Below are positions 5,777 through 17,421 of a stretch of 17,865 bases of DNA, one piece after another. The notes under the pieces were generated by a model. The model saw only the letters and a program-made list of their open reading frames with translations, ran no database searches and had not been told where the DNA came from. A program made the position numbers and the translations under genes. Numbering within the stretch: position 1 is the stretch's first letter; each line of letters opens with the position of its first letter. Source of the DNA: Holophagaceae bacterium (GTDB taxonomy: Bacteria > Acidobacteriota > Holophagae > Holophagales > Holophagaceae); NCBI GenBank assembly GCA_025355915.1, contig JANXYT010000380.1, positions 1 through 17,865 on the forward strand. The letters run 5' to 3'.

Positions 5777-6319
<543 letters not shown>

Positions 6320-6460
6320 GGGGACTCCGGGAGCGAATCCTTGGGTGCCGGCCGCCGCCCTCCCGTTCCAAGGGGCCCCGGGTCACCGGGGACTTCGCTC
6401 GGGTCGGCGAGGTGGATCCCCCACCCGCCGGCCCCTCGCCGGGGAAGGTGGCCCCCGGTC

Positions 6461-7564
6461 ATGCTGGATCCCATGCGCCTCGCCCCCCTCCAGCAGTACT
6501 TCCGGTCCCGCCTGCGGAAGCGGACGAGTTGGCTGGTGGTGATGGTCTTCGCGCTCGTGTTCACGGCGCTCCAGCTGATGGTGGTGCCCGCCTCCCTGCA
6601 GTCGCACCCGCCCGGTGTGCTGGTGAACGCCCTGCTCATGCCCTTCCTCGTGTCCTTCTGCTACGGATTTCTCACGCCCCTGCCCTGGCGTTGGAGTGGC
6701 GACGACCGGTCCCGGCCGTCCCTCCCGCGGGGGGTGGTCCAGGCGTTGCTGTTCAATGCAGCCGTCATTCTGGTGTTGGTGACCTTCAGCTGGTTCATGG
6801 TTCGGGACGCCAGCCTCAAGGCCGAGGCCCTGGGCCTGGCCAAAGGGACGAAGCCGACCTTCGCCAGCCTCCTGGCGACCAACATGCTGGGTGGAGTGCC
6901 GCTGATGACTATCATCGGGGCCATCATTTCGTTCGCCGGGATCACCGAAGAAGAGAAGGCTGCCGCGGAGGCCCGGCTGGAGGAGGCCCAGTGGGTGCTG
7001 CTGCGGGGCCAGCTGAGCCCCCATGTGTTGTTCAATTCCCTGAATGGGCTGGCGGAGCTGGTGCGTCAGGATCCCCTGGCTGCGGAACAGGCCATCCTTG
7101 ACTTGGCGGAGTTGTATCGGGCCCTGCTCCGCCACGGCGACCGGCCCAAGGCGCCCCTGGGAGACGAGCGGGCCCTGGTGCAGCGGTTCCTGGCGGTAGA
7201 GGGTCTTAGGCTCGGCGCCCGATTGCGGGCGCGATGGGATTGGGACGAAGCGCTGGATGGCGTGGAAGTCCCACCCTTTCTGCTTCAACCCCTGGTGGAG
7301 AACGCCCTGAAGCACGGCATCGCGCCCCATCCAGAGGGGGGCGACCTGGCCATCTCGCTCCAGCGCGAAGGCCGGGGCCTCCGCCTGCGGGTGGAGAACA
7401 CCGGTCGCGGGCTGGGCCTGGTGCCGGGGACCGGGGTCGGTCTTTGCAACCTGGAGGCCCGGCTTCGGCTGGCTTGCGGCCCGACCGCCGCGTTCCACCT
7501 GCGTTCCGAAGGCGCCCGCACCGTGGCCACCGTGGATCTCCCGAACCTGGAGCTGCCCCGATGA
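6461..7564 (+). CDS. LytS/YehU-type membrane sensor histidine kinase
   Basis: This is a 367-residue sensor kinase. Four predicted membrane helices (about 23-43, 54-72, 94-114, 140-160) form the sensor, with no large extracellular domain. A short linker helix follows (EEEKAAAEARLEEAQ). The His-kinase motif QLSPHVLFNSLNGL has phospho-acceptor His188; the family normally reads PHFLFN, so here Phe is Val. The ATPase domain has LLQPLVENALKHGI (Asn281), VENTGRG (311-317) and GTGVGLCNLEARL (323-335), all intact. ATG 6461 is the first in-frame start; ATG 6473 is an alternative. The stop overlaps the response regulator by 4 bp (ATGA), so the two act as a pair. The ligand cannot be inferred. Confidence 0.93.
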   Translation: MLDPMRLAPLQQYFRSRLRKRTSWLVVMVFALVFTALQLMVVPASLQSHPPGVLVNALLMPFLVSFCYGFLTPLPWRWSGDDRSRPSLPRGVVQALLFNAAVILVLVTFSWFMVRDASLKAEALGLAKGTKPTFASLLATNMLGGVPLMTIIGAIISFAGITEEEKAAAEARLEEAQWVLLRGQLSPHVLFNSLNGLAELVRQDPLAAEQAILDLAELYRALLRHGDRPKAPLGDERALVQRFLAVEGLRLGARLRARWDWDEALDGVEVPPFLLQPLVENALKHGIAPHPEGGDLAISLQREGRGLRLRVENTGRGLGLVPGTGVGLCNLEARLRLACGPTAAFHLRSEGARTVATVDLPNLELPR

Positions 7565-8301
7565 AGCCGCTCCGCGTGGCGCTGGCCGACGACGAACCCC
7601 TGGCCCGGACTCGCCTGGCGCGGCTGTTGCGGGAGGCGGGTTGCGAGGTCCAGGCGGAATTGGCGGACGGTCCGGCGGTGCTGGCATGGCTGCGCGAGCC
7701 GAAAGAGGTCGATGCGCTCTTTCTCGATATCCAGATGCCGGGGGCCACGGGCCTGGAAGTCGCCGCCGAGCTGGCGGACTGCCGCCACTGTCCGCCCGTG
7801 GTGTTCGTCACCGCCTATTCGGAACACGCCGTGCGGGCCTTCGAGGCAGCCGCCACCGACTACATCATGAAACCCGTGTCCGCCGAACGGCTGGTGAAGA
7901 CGCTGGGCCGCCTTCGGGAGGGGGGGGCGCACCGAGGCGCGGAGGTCCCCGCGGTTTCGCCCCAGAGGTTTCCCGTGAAGGCGGGAGAAGGCCATGTGTT
8001 CCTGGAGCTGAAACGCACCAGCCACTTCGAGGTGGAGGAGGAAGTGGTCTGGGCCTGGGTGCCCGTGCAGGGGGTGGCCGCCAGGCACCGCACCGCCTGG
8101 ACCACCCTCGCCGAGGTGGAAAGCGCCTTCCCTGCGGCGGGCCTCCTGCGCATCCAGCGGCATCTGCTGCTCCGGCCCGAAGCCGTGTTGGGCTTGCGGT
8201 CGTTGGAGGGGGGCCGGGCCTCGGTGCGGGTCGCCGAGGGGGTGGACCTGGAAGTGAGCCGGAGCAGCACGCCGAAAATCAAGGAACTGCTGGGGCTTTG
8301 A
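7561..8301 (+). CDS. LytTR-family response regulator
   Basis: This is a 246-residue DNA-binding regulator and cognate partner of the upstream kinase. The receiver domain (about 4-118) has the acidic pair D10-D11 in LADDEP, phospho-acceptor D56 in LFLDIQMPG, T84 in FVTAYSEHAV and K104 in YIMKPVS. The linker is about 119-145. The C-terminal LytTR domain (about 146-246) shows its typical order: FPVKAGEGHVFLEL, a strand with VVWAWV, TLAEVESAFPAAGLLRIQRHLLL, then a final strand with GVDLEVSRS. LytTR domains bind direct repeats in target promoters; no such site was identified here. The 4-bp overlap with the kinase gene signals translational coupling. Confidence 0.94.
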   Translation: MKPLRVALADDEPLARTRLARLLREAGCEVQAELADGPAVLAWLREPKEVDALFLDIQMPGATGLEVAAELADCRHCPPVVFVTAYSEHAVRAFEAAATDYIMKPVSAERLVKTLGRLREGGAHRGAEVPAVSPQRFPVKAGEGHVFLELKRTSHFEVEEEVVWAWVPVQGVAARHRTAWTTLAEVESAFPAAGLLRIQRHLLLRPEAVLGLRSLEGGRASVRVAEGVDLEVSRSSTPKIKELLGL

Positions 8302-12035: not shown

Positions 12036-12923
12036 TCAGTTGAACCCGTGGACGAAGTGCAGGTAGGCATAGAGCGCGGGGGCGGCGAAGACCAGGCTGT
12101 CGACGCGGTCCAACATGCCGCCATGGCCCGGGATGGACACCCCACCGACATTGGAATCCTTCACCCCGGCACTGCGTTTCCAGGTGCTCTCCACCAGGTC
12201 GCCCAACTGGCCGACGGTGCCCAAGATCAGGGCCAGGGCCACCACATCCACCCAGGTCCATTCGGGGCAGACCGTGGCCTGCATGAGGAAGGCGCCCACC
12301 AGGTTGCCCCCCAGGTTGCCGAAGGCGCCTTCCCAGCTCTTCTTGGGGCTGACCCGGGGCGCGAGCTTGTGTTTGCCGAGGTAGCTGCCCACGAAGTAGG
12401 CGGCGGTGTCGCCGAACCAGGTGATGATGAACAGGGACAGGATCAGCCGGCTGCCGGTCTTGGGCAGGGTGCCCTGCAGCATGAAGATCTTCTGCTGGAG
12501 GCCAAGACCAAGACCGAGGTAAAGGGCCCCAAGCCAGGTGATGGCCTGGCTGGGCAGGGCTTCTTCCAGTTTGGAATCAAAGAACAGGGCCCCGAAGTGG
12601 ATGACCATGGCCCCGACGGCAAAGATCAGCCAGAGCGGCAGGGGGTCCTGATGGCCGTTGACCAGGAAGAAGTGGGCCAGGAAGCCCCAGGCCACCAGGA
12701 CCCCAGACACCAAGGAAGGATTGAAGCCCCGCGCCCGGGCCACGAGGGTCATCTCGTGCATGGCCATGACCATAGCCCCGGCCATGGCGAACAGATAGGC
12801 CCAGGGCGCCCAGGGGCGGTCGCCGAACCACAGGAGGCTGAAGAAGAAGACACCGAACACCAGGGCCGTGGTCACGCGTACGGTCATGTTCTTGGTGTCC
12901 ACCTTGAGTGTGGTCCGTTCCAT
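12036..12923 (-). CDS. cdsA: Phosphatidate cytidylyltransferase (CDP-diglyceride synthase)
   Basis: CdsA makes CDP-diacylglycerol from phosphatidic acid and CTP at the inner membrane, the branch point of phospholipid synthesis. The protein is 295 residues with about eight membrane helices. The C-terminal CDS signature is intact: SPKKSWEGAFGNLGGNL, then STWKRSAGVKDS and IPGHGGMLDRVDSL, with the metal-binding Asp residues. The N-terminal stretch MERTTLKVDTKNMTVRV is cytoplasmic. The ATG at 12923 overlaps the uppS stop by one base (TGATG), with a G-rich run just before as a poor ribosome-binding site. This implies translational coupling from uppS. Family length and motif order are normal. Confidence 0.94.
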   Translation of the reverse strand: MERTTLKVDTKNMTVRVTTALVFGVFFFSLLWFGDRPWAPWAYLFAMAGAMVMAMHEMTLVARARGFNPSLVSGVLVAWGFLAHFFLVNGHQDPLPLWLIFAVGAMVIHFGALFFDSKLEEALPSQAITWLGALYLGLGLGLQQKIFMLQGTLPKTGSRLILSLFIITWFGDTAAYFVGSYLGKHKLAPRVSPKKSWEGAFGNLGGNLVGAFLMQATVCPEWTWVDVVALALILGTVGQLGDLVESTWKRSAGVKDSNVGGVSIPGHGGMLDRVDSLVFAAPALYAYLHFVHGFN

Positions 12924-13609
12924 CAAATCCCCCCGAAGCGGCGTTCGCGCTGGGCGTAGTCTTCGAGTGCGTCTTGAAGCTCCGCGGGGCCGAAATCCGG
13001 CCACAGGAGGTCGGTCATGTATAGTTCGGCGTAGGCGGATTGCCACAGCAGGAAATTGGAAATGCGGTGTTCGCCGCTGGTGCGAATCAGCAGGTCCACG
13101 TCGGGCACCTCGGCGGTCCAGAGGCGGGATCCCAGGGCGGCCTCGTCCACCTCCTCGGGGCGGAGGCCATCCTCCACGCAGCGCCGGGCAGCCTGGGCCA
13201 GTTCCAACCGGGAGCCGTAGTTCACCGCGAGATGGAACGTCATGCCCATATTCTGTGCCGTGGCGGCTTCCAGGGTCTTCATATCCGCCAGGACCCCCGC
13301 AGGCATCCCCTCCGAAGCCCCCAAGTGGTGGAAACGAATCCCCTGCTTGGCCAGGCGATGGACGAACATGCGCAGGTACATGCGGAGGAGGGCCATGAGG
13401 GCCCCCACCTCGAGGGCGGGCCGCTTCCAATTCTCCGTGGAAAACGCGTAGAGACTCAAGTGCCGGATGCCCGCGTCCGAGGCCGCCTCGAGGATGCGCT
13501 CGACGGCCTGAACCCCCGCCTTGTGCCCCTTGATCCGAGGCCAGCCCCGCTGAGCCGCCCAGCGGCCGTTGCCATCCATAATAATGGCGACATGGGTTGG
13601 CACCGTCAT
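12923..13609 (-). CDS. uppS: Isoprenyl transferase / undecaprenyl diphosphate synthase
   Basis: UppS makes cis-polyprenyl diphosphate (C55-PP), the lipid carrier for peptidoglycan and O-antigen. The protein is 228 residues, slightly short. Motifs present are HVAIIMDGNGRWA (6-18, catalytic Asp12), GHKAGVQAVERIL, LSLYAFSTENWKRP, FHLAVNYGSRLEL and LLIRTSGEHRISNFLLWQSAYAELY. The start at ATG 13609 has GGGAG six bases upstream and gives the exact family N terminus. A longer frame to 13678 adds non-family residues and passes through a palindrome, so it is rejected. The start is overlapped by the stop of a short leader frame (13606-13716) that begins with the same ten amino acids. It is the first gene of the uppS-cdsA-dxr-rseP operon. 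Confidence 0.95.
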   Translation of the reverse strand: MTVPTHVAIIMDGNGRWAAQRGWPRIKGHKAGVQAVERILEAASDAGIRHLSLYAFSTENWKRPALEVGALMALLRMYLRMFVHRLAKQGIRFHHLGASEGMPAGVLADMKTLEAATAQNMGMTFHLAVNYGSRLELAQAARRCVEDGLRPEEVDEAALGSRLWTAEVPDVDLLIRTSGEHRISNFLLWQSAYAELYMTDLLWPDFGPAELQDALEDYAQRERRFGGI

Positions 13610-13716
13610 CGCGTGCTCCCAAGCACGGTAAGGTTGGGCCATTCCGCGTGGCCAGCCTCGCGTATGCCCGCAGGGCATACCGAGAAGATGATCGCGACAT
13701 GGGTCGGGACGGTCAT
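13606..13716 (-). pseudogene. Leader reading frame carrying a second copy of the uppS first ten codons (36 aa)
   Basis: The frame reads MTVPTHVAII, then diverges (FSVCPAGIRE...) and stops with TGA inside the uppS start (ATGA overlap at 13609-13606). The first 30 bases (13716-13687) match uppS 13609-13580 at 24 positions; all six differences are third-codon changes that keep the amino acid. The 107-bp offset shifts the frame. AGAGG lies about 11 bases before its ATG. It looks like the remains of another uppS start joined in front of the present gene. If translated, it could couple ribosomes to uppS. Confidence 0.45.
13662..13680. repeat. Perfect 19-base palindrome in the uppS leader
   Basis: GTATGCCC (13662-13669) and GGGCATAC (13673-13680) are perfect inverted 8-base arms around a 3-base loop. 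The palindrome sits between the two copies of the uppS start. Just downstream toward uppS, TGGCC and GGCCA words at about 13638-13653 allow a second, weaker hairpin. Together they are reminiscent of REP-type palindromic elements, but this is not established. Confidence 0.6.
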
Positions 13717-13822: not shown

Positions 13823-13851
13823 ATAATATTCCTGGCGAACCCATGGTTCAG
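13823..13851 (-). promoter_or_regulatory. Candidate promoter for the uppS-cdsA-dxr-rseP operon
   Basis: On the minus strand CTGAAC (13851-13846) and TATTAT (13828-13823) are 17 bases apart, with 3/6 and 5/6 matches to consensus -35 and -10. It overlaps the first codons of the divergent GTPase-kinase gene. The leader to uppS would be about 205 bases and include the short reading frames and palindrome. The -35 match is poor. Confidence 0.3.
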
Positions 13852-16221
13852 TTCAATACCCGTGCAAATGAGATTCTGCTCAAGCTGGTCTATTACGGGC
13901 CGGGCCTATCGGGCAAGACGACCAACCTGCAGTCCCTGCATGCGATGTGTTCGGATACGCAGCGGGGTGAGATGTTTTCCGTCAACACCCAGGAGGATCG
14001 CACCCTCTTCTTCGACCTGCTCCCCATCAATCTGGGCTACATCTATGGGAACGCCATCCACCTGCAGATCTACACAGTGCCAGGCCAGGTGCAGTACGAC
14101 GCCAGCCGTCGCGTGGTGCTGGGCGGGGCCGATGGCGTGATCTTCGTAGCGGATTCCAGCGAAGCCAAGATGCAGGACAACGTGGATTCGCTGTCGAACC
14201 TGTACCACAACCTCAACGCGAACCGCCTGAACATCAAACAGATTCCCTTCGTCTTGCAGTACAACAAGCGGGATCTGCCGGACGCCATGGCCGTGGGCGT
14301 CATGAACCGCCGCCTGAATTTCCGCAGCGTCCCCTATTTCGAGTCGGTGGCCAACCGGGGCCCCGGCGTGCTGGACACCTTCCTGTCGATCACGCGCGAG
14401 ACGGTGAGTTACACCTTCAAGAAGTACCACCTGGACAAGAAGATCAAGGACTTCGACGAGATGCTGAATCTCATCGAGTCCAACGTGCGTACCAGCATGC
14501 GGGAGCTTCCCCCCCGCGAGGACGCGCCCTTGTTGCCTGCGGGGGAGACGACTATCCTGCGGCACGGCAATGTGAGTGTCGCCGATCTGGTGCCCGGGAA
14601 GGTCGCGGATGCTCAGGACCTGTTGGAAGACGCCCTCAAGTCCAACATGGAGACGGCCCGGCTCTACTCCGAGCTGAAGCAGGCCAAGGAGACGCTGGAA
14701 AAGAAGACCGAGGAACTGAGCCAGCTCTATTCCCAGCTCGACCGGGCCAATCAGGACAACCTGAAGACCCGGAAGTACCTGGAAGGCCTGGTGCAAAACA
14801 TCGGCGAGGCGGTCATCTCTTTTTCGCCAGAGGGAAAGATCCTCACCTGGAACGTGGCGGCAGAGCGCATCTTCGGGTACGCCCGGCCGGAGATCGTGGG
14901 CCGAAGCATGGCTCAACTGACGCCGGATACTCTGCTGGGCGAACTGGACCGGGTGGCCCAGCAGGTGGGACGGGGCCAGGTCATCCGGGACATGGTCACC
15001 ACGCGGCTGCGCAAGGGTGGAGTCGCCTTTCCGGCCAGCATCACCTATGCGCCGGTCCGGGGCGGCGACGACCGGATTCTGGCCTTTTCGGCCCTGGTGC
15101 GCGATACCAGCGATCAGAGGAACCTGGAAGACCGGCTGGTCCATTCCCAAAAGCATGAAGCGCTCGGCCGTCTGGTTCCCTCGCTGTTCCACGAGGTGTC
15201 CAACCGGCTCACGCCGGTGCTTTTGGAGTCGCGCCTGCTATCTGAATCGGCCATGGATCCTCATCAAGCTGAACAGGCGGCGCGACTGGTGAAGGCCGTC
15301 GAGTCCGTCCAGAGCCTGCTGCAGCCCCTGCAGACCGTCCTGAATCCTCCCAGGCCGAGGCCGCTGCCCGCGCAGCTGAACCGGCTGGTCCAGGAGGCGG
15401 TGGCTTGCGTGGAGGCCAAGGCCCAGCGGATGGGCGTCACGGTGGAGCTGAACCTGGATGCCTCTCTGCCGGAAACCGCCTTTGATGCTGGGCAGATGGT
15501 CCAGGCCCTCGCCCACCTTCTGCAGAATGGCCTTCACGCCATGACCCTCAGCCCGGTCAAGCGTCTGCGGGTGGCGACCCGGATGTCTGGCGACAACTTG
15601 CAGGTGGTGGTCCAGGATACGGGCACTGCCTACACAGAGGCCCAGCAGGCCGAGATGTTCGATCCAGCCAGCGCCACCACCACGGATGCGCTGGGCCTGC
15701 CCATCGCCGACATCATCGCCCGCCAGCACGGCGGCCGCCTCAGTGCCCGTAGCCAGGAAGGCATGGGGAACGCCTTCCTGATGGACCTGCCCCTCGTCAT
15801 GGCCGTCGTGGCTCCCACGGTCATCCCCCCCGTGGGGCTGAAGGGGGCCAAGGTCCTGGTGGTGGATGACGAAACCTTTCTGCTGGAGTGCCTCGTGGAT
15901 GCCCTTGGCACCTGGGGCATGGAGGTCACCGCCAGCACCCGGGGCGATGAGGCCATCCAGAAATTGGAGGCTGGTACGTTCGATCTGATCGTGTCCGACA
16001 TCCGGATGCCGGGCCTGTCGGGGGTCGAACTGTACGATTGGCTGAAGACCGAGCGCCCCGCCATGACGCAGCGAATCCTGTACACCACGGGCGATTCGTT
16101 CGATGTGAAGACGCGGGAGTTTCTGGAATCGAGCCAGGTGCCCTACCTGGGTAAGCCTTTCGATCTAAAGCAGCTCAAGCAAAGTCTCGAGCGGTTGCTA
16201 GAGACTCCGGTCCAGGCGTAG
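13843..16221 (+). CDS. MglA-like GTPase fused to PAS, histidine-kinase-like core and receiver (792 aa)
   Basis: Residues 1-195 are an MglA-family Ras-like GTPase. The P-loop is GPGLSGKTT (19-27), R53 in EDRTLFFD sits at the position of the M. xanthus MglA arginine finger, the MglA-type G3 is TVPGQVQY (78-85, Gln82), and the base-recognition loop is NKRD (141-144). Residues 196-315 are helical with a coiled coil (262-312). A PAS domain spans about 316-425 (NIGEAVISFSPEGKILTWN). The H-box SLFHEVSNRLTPVL has His450. The ATPase region keeps the N-box Asn (LLQNGLHAM, N562) but has DTGTA and DALGLP where DxGxG and GxGxG are normal, so ATP binding may be weak. The C-terminal receiver (668-788) is complete: D675-D676, D719 in VSDIRMPG, T749, K771. 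It has no membrane segment and is thus cytoplasmic. No MglB (GTPase-activating protein) gene is in the window. No Shine-Dalgarno is clear; ATG 13843 gives the exact MglA N terminus. Confidence 0.92.
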   Translation: MVQFNTRANEILLKLVYYGPGLSGKTTNLQSLHAMCSDTQRGEMFSVNTQEDRTLFFDLLPINLGYIYGNAIHLQIYTVPGQVQYDASRRVVLGGADGVIFVADSSEAKMQDNVDSLSNLYHNLNANRLNIKQIPFVLQYNKRDLPDAMAVGVMNRRLNFRSVPYFESVANRGPGVLDTFLSITRETVSYTFKKYHLDKKIKDFDEMLNLIESNVRTSMRELPPREDAPLLPAGETTILRHGNVSVADLVPGKVADAQDLLEDALKSNMETARLYSELKQAKETLEKKTEELSQLYSQLDRANQDNLKTRKYLEGLVQNIGEAVISFSPEGKILTWNVAAERIFGYARPEIVGRSMAQLTPDTLLGELDRVAQQVGRGQVIRDMVTTRLRKGGVAFPASITYAPVRGGDDRILAFSALVRDTSDQRNLEDRLVHSQKHEALGRLVPSLFHEVSNRLTPVLLESRLLSESAMDPHQAEQAARLVKAVESVQSLLQPLQTVLNPPRPRPLPAQLNRLVQEAVACVEAKAQRMGVTVELNLDASLPETAFDAGQMVQALAHLLQNGLHAMTLSPVKRLRVATRMSGDNLQVVVQDTGTAYTEAQQAEMFDPASATTTDALGLPIADIIARQHGGRLSARSQEGMGNAFLMDLPLVMAVVAPTVIPPVGLKGAKVLVVDDETFLLECLVDALGTWGMEVTASTRGDEAIQKLEAGTFDLIVSDIRMPGLSGVELYDWLKTERPAMTQRILYTTGDSFDVKTREFLESSQVPYLGKPFDLKQLKQSLERLLETPVQA

Positions 16222-16278: not shown

Positions 16279-17421
16279 ATGCAGCGAAGTTGGGTCATGG
16301 CCATCATCCTGGCCTCGGGCCTCCTGGCCCAAACGCCACCTCCCGCACCACCGCCTGCTCCGGCCCCGGCGTCTGTGCCCGAGCCCAAACCCGCAGACGT
16401 GAAACCCGAGATCCCGGCCCTGCCCAAGGTGGACGAGCCGAAGCCCGCCGCGGAGAAGGCTCTCGAGTCCAGGGCTTTCGACCAGCTCCGGCCCACGCAG
16501 CGCAAGATGGCTTACACCCTGCACCGGGCCGCCCTGTCCGCCCATGAGTTGGGGTACTACCGAAGCCATCCCAAGACCATCGAGGTGCGCGATGCGTTGG
16601 AAGCGCTGCTGGAGGCCAAGCTGTACATCCCGGAAAAGGCCCAAACGGGCCTCCCCGCGGTGGAAACTTACCTGGTGAAGCTCCGGGCCAACCATGGTCT
16701 CTATGATGCCGAGGGGAAGAAGGTCCTGCTCGAAAGCACCTGGAAGGAGCTGCAGGCCGCTGCCCGCACCGCCGCCAAGACGGGCCCCATGGGGCTGGAA
16801 CCGCGACTGCTCAAGCTCAAGGGCCTGCTTTTCGACGCCAAGGTGGACGCCGTCGCGCCCAGTTTTGCCGAACCCGAAGCGCCTGCCCCCAGCAAGAAAG
16901 GCAAGAAGGCCAAGGCCGTGAAGGGCCCCAAGGCCCCCGAGGGCTTCGCAAGCCAGAAGGCCATCGCCGCGCTGTGGGTGAAACGCTCCCAGGCCTGGAT
17001 CGAGAACACCCCTCAAGAGGTCGAAATCAAGGGGGAGAAGAAGACCCGCCGCCTCCCTGATCCCTCACAAACCAAGGCTCTCAACGATCTGCTGGTGTGG
17101 CTCGATAAGGATGACCTCGAGCTGCTCCGCGACCCCGGCTTCGGCTGGCTGGACCTGCGTCGCCTGGGTGCGACGCCCGGCGCCGGCCTGATGGCCCGGG
17201 CCGGAGACATCGCCGCGGCGAAGGCCCCCGAAGGCGCCGCTGGAGAGTTGGTCCTTCTGCCCACTTTTGAGCCCGTACTCGGCGACAGCAAGTTCATCAA
17301 GGGCGAAGAGAAGCGGAGTGTCCTCGTCGAGGTGAAACAGGGTGCCCCCGCCGCCAACCTCACCGACCAGATGGCGGCCTTCGAGAAGCTGGGTCGCAGC
17401 CGGGAGATCGAGGTCAAATAA
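16279..17421 (+). CDS. Exported protein of unknown function with Pro/Ala-rich linker (380 aa)
   Basis: An N-terminal signal peptide (MQRSWVMAIILASGLLAQ, cut near A17) is followed by a Pro/Ala/Lys linker (about 19-60), common in periplasmic proteins tethered near the wall. A helical domain spans about 65-190 (LRPTQRKMAYTLHRAALSAHE, then YLVKLRANHGLYDAEGKKVL). A Lys/Ala/Pro-rich spacer follows (about 205-225), then a C-terminal domain of about 150 residues (KAIAALWVKRSQAWIENTP, FGWLDLRRLGATPGAGL). The segment 68-175 faintly recalls the N-terminal part of M49 dipeptidyl peptidase III, but the HELLGH zinc motif is absent, so no peptidase activity is proposed. The start has GAGGAG (16267-16272) six bases upstream. 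It follows the GTPase-kinase gene by 57 bases in the same direction and may share its transcript. Confidence 0.8.
   Translation: MQRSWVMAIILASGLLAQTPPPAPPPAPAPASVPEPKPADVKPEIPALPKVDEPKPAAEKALESRAFDQLRPTQRKMAYTLHRAALSAHELGYYRSHPKTIEVRDALEALLEAKLYIPEKAQTGLPAVETYLVKLRANHGLYDAEGKKVLLESTWKELQAAARTAAKTGPMGLEPRLLKLKGLLFDAKVDAVAPSFAEPEAPAPSKKGKKAKAVKGPKAPEGFASQKAIAALWVKRSQAWIENTPQEVEIKGEKKTRRLPDPSQTKALNDLLVWLDKDDLELLRDPGFGWLDLRRLGATPGAGLMARAGDIAAAKAPEGAAGELVLLPTFEPVLGDSKFIKGEEKRSVLVEVKQGAPAANLTDQMAAFEKLGRSREIEVK

Follow-up and report, generated by a model that had tools for sequence, protein, structure and literature searches.

Bacterial Ras-like switches, as the sections of the papers cited here present them, are free-standing proteins under the control of separate partners. 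In the Myxococcus xanthus complex, one MglA sits on an MglB dimer (PMC6876712, sections cited). RomR/RomX is described as a guanine nucleotide exchange factor (PMC13343842, sections cited). Among two-component proteins, the cited part of PMC4211667 gives DivL as a precedent for a transmitter turned reader of receiver phosphate, with reversed flow. Here, we describe a gene that encodes an MglA domain and a two-component core in one chain. The gene lies in a 17,865-nucleotide stretch of DNA from a Holophagaceae bacterium (assembly GCA_025355915.1, contig JANXYT010000380.1). We refer to the whole stretch as the window, and positions are given in its numbering. The fusion is real, conserved and, as far as searched, undescribed. 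It is an MglA-family variant attached to a two-component core that is worn. We give even chances to its being a sensor-controlled Ras-like switch, with the GTPase as the output.

A conserved single-chain fusion of MglA with two-component domains

The original prediction, made from the window alone, described a complete MglA domain joined through a coiled coil to a PAS domain, a kinase-like core and a receiver. This was confirmed, with a long helix at the place of the coil and a transmitter (DHp plus HATPase) as the core; the gene is single and intact. The parts are as follows.

13843..16221, + strand: whole gene, MglA, coil, PAS, transmitter and receiver; 792 amino acids, stop included
13843..14412, + strand: MglA GTPase domain, residues 1-190; P-loop 19-27, Arg53, Thr54, Thr78, Gln82, NKRD 141-144
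14452..14496, + strand: short helix after the GTPase domain, residues 204-218, in the predicted structure
14518..14595, + strand: linker predicted to be disordered, about residues 226-251; predicted local distance difference test (pLDDT) <50 at 226-246 and 248-251
14611..14796, + strand: single predicted helix, a probable coiled coil, about residues 257-318; from the structure model and heptad test
14620..14664, + strand: helix-start motif L260, A264, N268, L274, common to PAS-type and most GAF-type MglA fusions
14779..15105, + strand: PAS domain, residues 313-421; Pfam PF00989, 6.9e-12
15106..15342, + strand: DHp (HisKA-like), residues 422-500; His450 at 15190-15192, Asn454 (position H+4) at 15202-15204
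15343..15795, + strand: HATPase (CA) domain, residues 501-651; Pfam 1.4e-11, degenerate G1 (15616-15630) and G2 (15682-15696)
15847..16206, + strand: receiver domain, residues 669-788; Pfam 1.7e-19, phospho-Asp719 at 15997-15999

The prediction had also read a P-loop, Arg53, Gln82 and NKRD. All were borne out and the set of GTPase motif residues is complete. Traits of the MglA type include a Thr in place of the G3 Asp, Gln82, NKxD and the intrinsic Arg53, together with a match to 6h17 (2.2e-54). In structure prediction, the GTPase domain was well modelled only once GAF-type relatives joined the 70 close sequences. Databases label the fusion 'PAS domain S-box protein', 'response regulator' or 'histidine kinase'. 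Its NCBIfam scores (AtoS 160.1 bits, EspC 145.5, EspA 140.3) are all far under the cut-offs.

The family comprises soil and sediment bacteria. Matches to the fusion at E <= 1e-100 were found in 66 of the 77 family genomes. Restricting the count to genomes of >=90% completeness and <=5% contamination gave 44/48. The source genome, a draft in 506 contigs that is 77.6% complete, is fragmented, which would leave room for a gene fused artificially by misassembly or frameshift. However, the full-length fusion lies within one contig in 56 family genomes, including those of the named isolates Geothrix fermentans DSM 14018 and G. limicola; G. rubra and G. campi are further named carriers. An artefact is thus refuted by full-length orthologs, and we regard it as extremely improbable. 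Separately, one contig end (G000 contig C504, bases 16-239, L162) carries two short, oppositely oriented fragments of the MglA N-terminus, probably an assembly artefact.

State of the transmitter and receiver

Our main motif set combined an alignment of 70 family sequences (A1), the best 120 of 6954 database matches and the protein L156; it over-represents near relatives of the window. A first set held 67 distinct rows, 61 with a receiver. DxGxG (G1) occurred in 0/159 family proteins with a transmitter, and the first two glycines of G2 (GxGxG) were likewise found in 0/159. The first set gave 0/66 for DxGxG; the third G2 glycine was mostly retained (54/67 rows). Control kinases were scored for the same motifs. 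G1 and G2 were present in all ten other kinases fetched from the source genome, where the H pattern missed 1/10, and the motifs were kept in 12/12 paired orthologs of the window's neighbour kinase. D.G.G was present in 31/32 distinct GAF-type MglA fusions (36 proteins in all; only the G1 count was used, as the H-box pattern missed many rows and the G2 pattern may match G1). Judged from these motifs, the kinase core is degenerate and without the glycine motifs of a working kinase.

The phosphoacceptor position is also variable. In 144 receiver-bearing family proteins it is His in 125, Asn in 18 and Arg in one (44, 16 and one among the 61 of the first set). Fifteen receiver-less family proteins have Asp (11), Thr (two), Glu (one) or Ser (one). 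The N-box Asn is retained in 39/61 receiver-bearing proteins of the first set. The receiver itself is intact: its phospho-Asp, Thr and Lys are present in 144/144 proteins, and its DD pair in 61/61 of the first set. In the family f3, of the same class, G1 is kept in 6/7 GTPase-PAS-transmitter proteins and His in 1/7. Hence, two lineages lost different motifs. Two GAF-type fusions of f3 (L146:5905-8121 and L147:5633-7855) show a further loss of His; Gln replaces it, with G1 and G2 intact.

These counts bear on the proposal that GTP state feeds a phosphorelay, as originally predicted. In that scheme, the protein would be an active hybrid histidine kinase with the GTPase as an additional input; kinase activity would depend on the PAS signal and on GTP state or polar position, and the phosphorelay would be the output. 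We consider this unlikely. DxGxG and G2 are absent from 159/159 family transmitters, against 10/10 and 12/12 with both motifs in control kinases. His is lost in 19/144 receiver-bearing orthologs, and forms with no transmitter persist at the same locus. With the receiver intact in 144/144, the opposite direction fits better.

A second proposal is that the transmitter is a phosphatase for its own receiver, kinase-minus and phosphatase-plus, gated by PAS, the GTPase or both, with another kinase charging the receiver. In the cited part of PMC3510030, the H+4 Asn is the phosphatase residue of HisKA proteins, needed only for that activity, and Glu/Asp at H+1 is a kinase-only residue. Consistent with such a role, H+4 Asn was found in 143/144 receiver-bearing family proteins and 0/15 receiver-less ones. 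In CrdS, H371A and E372A retain phosphatase activity and N375A loses it (PMC3510030, same part). DrBphP is a precedent for a phosphatase with no kinase activity (PMC8292422, sections cited). However, the same sections report that DrBphP phosphatase required ATP and was lost with Asn at H+4; the ATP lid of the fusion is degenerate. Among the seven receiver-less f3 proteins, one (L175) has the H+4 Asn and L140 has Glu; the residues are polar. The state of H+4 Asn changes four times on the tree; independent events are few. The phosphatase proposal also leaves H+1 unexplained, which is acidic in 142/144 receiver-bearing proteins. We put its chances as low as those of the active kinase.

Receiver remnants were sought downstream of the receiver-less orthologs and none was convincing; L055 has one weak receiver-like match on the opposite strand, some 3 kb distant.

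GTPase, helix and direction of signalling

The GTPase motif residues are complete in 161/161 distinct family proteins, and the motifs are kept in 55/55 rows spanning the PAS and GAF fusion types. Pooled dN/dS (nonsynonymous over synonymous substitution rate) was 0.07 for the GTPase (919 overlapping pairs), the slowest part, and 0.41 for the HATPase. By sequence, the GTPase is the invariant part of the fusion.

The long helix has a hydrophobic fraction of 0.69 at a/d positions and 0.20 elsewhere in the heptad test; this pattern makes dimerisation through the helix plausible. The motif at its start is shared by both fusion types: L260 in 54/55 rows, A264 in 51/55, N268 in 50/55 and L274 in 55/55. 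A hidden Markov model (HMM) trained on PAS-type helices scored at least 9.7 bits with 9/10 GAF-type proteins from genomes and 11/19 from databases, at least one sequence being in both lists; it missed L148 among the former and eight of the latter. For five PAS proteins of the family f2, four scored at least 5.5 bits and one 2.3. As controls, 16 open reading frames at the control kinase loci all scored below 0, and 0/580 shuffles reached 5 bits. The helix-start motif may be the element that couples the GTPase to the sensor.

If no signal passed along the chain, the two-component part could be a mere platform for dimerisation and localisation that concentrates the GTPase. The hydrophobic a/d pattern of the long helix would suit a platform, as would the shortened forms, which retain GTPase, helix and PAS. 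However, a platform accounts poorly for receiver phosphorylation residues kept in 144/144 proteins, or for a motif placed right after the GTPase and common to two sensor types. We consider it the least likely of the three functional alternatives.

Since the GTPase and receiver are kept while the transmitter motifs decay, it is more likely that receiver and PAS signal to the GTPase than that the GTPase signals to a phosphorelay. In our preferred reading, that of a sensor-controlled switch, the protein would dimerise through the long helix and DHp. Another kinase would phosphorylate the receiver in trans. In 19/144 orthologs a different donor is needed, because their own phosphoacceptor His is gone. 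The transmitter would no longer make phosphate; it would read, and perhaps remove, the receiver's phosphate, much as DivL reads DivK~P. Receiver state and PAS state would then pass up the helix. The GTP state of the GTPase, or its access to effectors, would be set by this signal, making the GTPase the output. Its likely target would be the type IV pilus or polarity machinery, by family resemblance and weak co-occurrence.

Several observations weigh against the switch reading. The window protein retains His450, Glu451, Asn562, Asp592 and Gly594, as do 34/61 receiver-bearing proteins of the first set. Hence, weak kinase activity is possible. The HATPase is 66% identical across 12 loci, compared with 69% for the bona fide neighbour kinase, and so has diverged no faster. 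Loss of His maps to three changes on the tree, and the counts of its loss are therefore not independent. Similarly, receiver and H+4 Asn differ jointly in only one or two independent pairs, in the same direction and with no significance, and the polar H+4 residues of the receiver-less f3 proteins L175 and L140 also count against the switch reading. Glu/Asp at H+1 is kept in 16/17 His-less receiver proteins of the first set, which a dead kinase does not explain. Finally, no fusion match was found in G022 and G031, two PilT-bearing genomes that are 95-96% complete.

Faster HATPase decay had been considered as a sign of a dead kinase. It was rejected, as the neighbour kinase diverges equally in the 12 pairable loci of L005-L056. 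Therefore, only the motif loss is specific.

Genomic setting, relatives and comparison with known systems

We compared the surroundings of the fusion at 52 named family loci (L005-L056). In the usual order a divergent uppS is followed by cdsA, dxr and rseP. The two genes flanking the fusion in the window are listed below.

12923..13678, - strand: uppS, divergent neighbour, at 49/52 named family loci
16279..17421, + strand: downstream gene, 380 amino acids, no Pfam match, 58 nucleotides past the fusion stop; beside the fusion in most near relatives

At the three loci with no uppS, the fusion gene begins within 320 bases of a contig end. At L020 the best uppS match is on the far side and cdsA on the usual side. 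Of the six shortened forms at the named loci, five (L041, L042, L052, L054 and L055) share the uppS neighbourhood. Hence, these are orthologs of the fusion. The receiver is absent from orthologs in genus g6, and both transmitter and receiver are absent from those of L055 (genome G054) and G075. In G075, of genus g11, uppS adjoins the GTPase-PAS gene. None of the usual neighbours was found at the G073 piece (also g11) or at the f2 and f3 loci. Forms lacking the GTPase were not encountered, although these would resemble an ordinary kinase. At L052, L054 and L055, the gene in the downstream position encodes 705-711 amino acids and its N-terminus is similar by eye. Elsewhere in the window, positions 5846-8301 hold a gene for a LytS-type kinase (Pfam His_kinase). 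A frame resembling a response regulator overlaps it and, by eye, looks LytTR-type.

The prediction had raised the possibility that the coiled coil replaces the arrangement induced by MglB. We reject replacement of MglB for the source genome, which has a separate free mglB-mglA pair on contig C54. Most family genomes encode four MglA-type proteins, and a Robl_LC7 match occurs in 67/77 (56 strong, at E <= 6.2e-14, and 11 weak only). The accompanying notion of an MglB-induced dimer of GTPases does not agree with the M. xanthus complex described above, which has a single MglA. The suggested survey of homologue genomes for mglB gave a divided answer: most have Robl_LC7, but four good fusion genomes have no match at all. 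No strong MglB match was found in 14/66 fusion-bearing genomes, mostly incomplete ones. The best cases of a fusion with no Robl_LC7 match of any kind are G017, G040, G073 and G075 (92-98% complete). Genus g11 had none in 4/4 genomes, two of them 64-69% complete. Its members G073 and G075 retain the GTPase-PAS part, the G073 gene being cut by a contig end. No mglB lies beside the fusion, where the neighbours are uppS-cdsA-dxr-rseP and the gene with no Pfam match.

Across the family, 65 genomes have both fusion and PilT, one the fusion only, six PilT only and five neither (Fisher 1.3e-4, kinship ignored); G026, counted as fusion-less, carries a piece of the fusion. The five with neither come from two genera whose genomes are small or incomplete. 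Involvement in the control of pili or polarity is no more than a lead. In G001-G003 (genus g2, 0.9-1.2 Mb), neither the fusion nor free MglA nor MglB was matched, and no PilT match exceeded the cut-off.

Sensor-fused MglA extends beyond the family. The GTPase-PAS-transmitter proteins of f3 (621-639 amino acids, without a receiver) occur in 7/7 genomes. A GTPase-PAS protein (406-413 amino acids) occurs in 5/9 genomes of f2, of the same class. GTPase-GAF-kinase proteins of approximately 710-770 amino acids are found in f2, f3 and other Acidobacteriota. In a 58-row tree of MglA domains, the 41 PAS- or GAF-fused domains form one side of a 100/100 branch; this tree is midpoint-rooted, long branches meet there, and it holds one non-acidobacterial MglA only. 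The other side holds 17 rows: free MglA, that of M. xanthus among them, and MglA proteins that carry a C-terminal tail. PAS-type domains form a group of their own (35 rows, 100/99). The f2 GAF-type proteins L181-L184 were left out, as their P-loop pattern was unmatched. MglA is present in 146/396 genomes of the phylum, a figure that mixes free and fused forms and was not used as a fusion count. The source genome encodes two further MglA-type proteins with C-terminal tails, at L160:3998-4870 (contig C424, approximately 290 amino acids) and L161:559-1902 (C314, approximately 447 amino acids). The L160 tail has no Pfam match, and both proteins fall outside the sensor-fused group.

According to the cited part of PMC4316618, a survey of prokaryotic Ras-like GTPases removed sequences longer than 240 amino acids (working range 150-240). 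Hence, the PAS/GAF-fused proteins were left out, and the reference MglA survey misses a whole class of sensor-fused proteins. Taken broadly, our proposal has a Ras-like GTPase as the output of a reversed two-component chain, in which a receiver charged in trans and PAS act via a pseudokinase and a dedicated helix, and in which PAS/GAF-fused MglA is a separate, vertically inherited Acidobacteriota class that a survey of small proteins only would miss. We hold this whole proposal tentatively, at somewhat less than even chances. From a conserved form in a single chain, one could see directly how sensory input gets to a Ras-like switch, and the outputs of two-component proteins would gain a GTPase. 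With GTPase, helix, transmitter and receiver all on one polypeptide, a single purified protein suffices to test their coupling. Among the open-access literature matches listed, no MglA-PAS-kinase fusion is named in any title or abstract opening.

Compared with known systems, the fusion combines features that are otherwise apart. MglA of M. xanthus and Thermus (Group 1) is single-domain; the fusion is a multidomain protein of 792 amino acids, beyond the survey limit. Free MglA, including that of M. xanthus, lies across the 100/100 branch, and the fusion has no adjoining mglB. EspA, EspC and AtoS, as hybrid kinases, share the order PAS-HisKA-HATPase(-REC). The window protein has their phosphoacceptor (His450) and receiver D/T/K, but not the G1 and G2 boxes. 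Across the family, the fusion differs from them in the loss of G1/G2, the partial loss of His and the N-terminal GTPase. RomR is a receiver-domain protein that regulates MglA (PMC3441718 and PMC3420945, parts cited). However, RomR is a separate response regulator, and the fusion's receiver is joined via PAS and the transmitter. In the conservon CvnA-D, a histidine-kinase-like protein is coupled to an MglA-type GTPase (PMC4316618 and PMC13343842, sections cited). There, the proteins are separate and encoded by a four-gene operon (histidine kinase, MglB-type Robl_LC7, CvnC and GTPase), whereas the fusion is one chain with no such operon. The likeness to DivL rests on motif loss and fold similarity; the shared kinase fold is the closest kinship found, and the window protein keeps its His. 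In the part of the source cited, the DivK that Caulobacter DivL reads is a separate protein, and CckA is what DivL acts on. The fusion has receiver and GTPase in the same chain.
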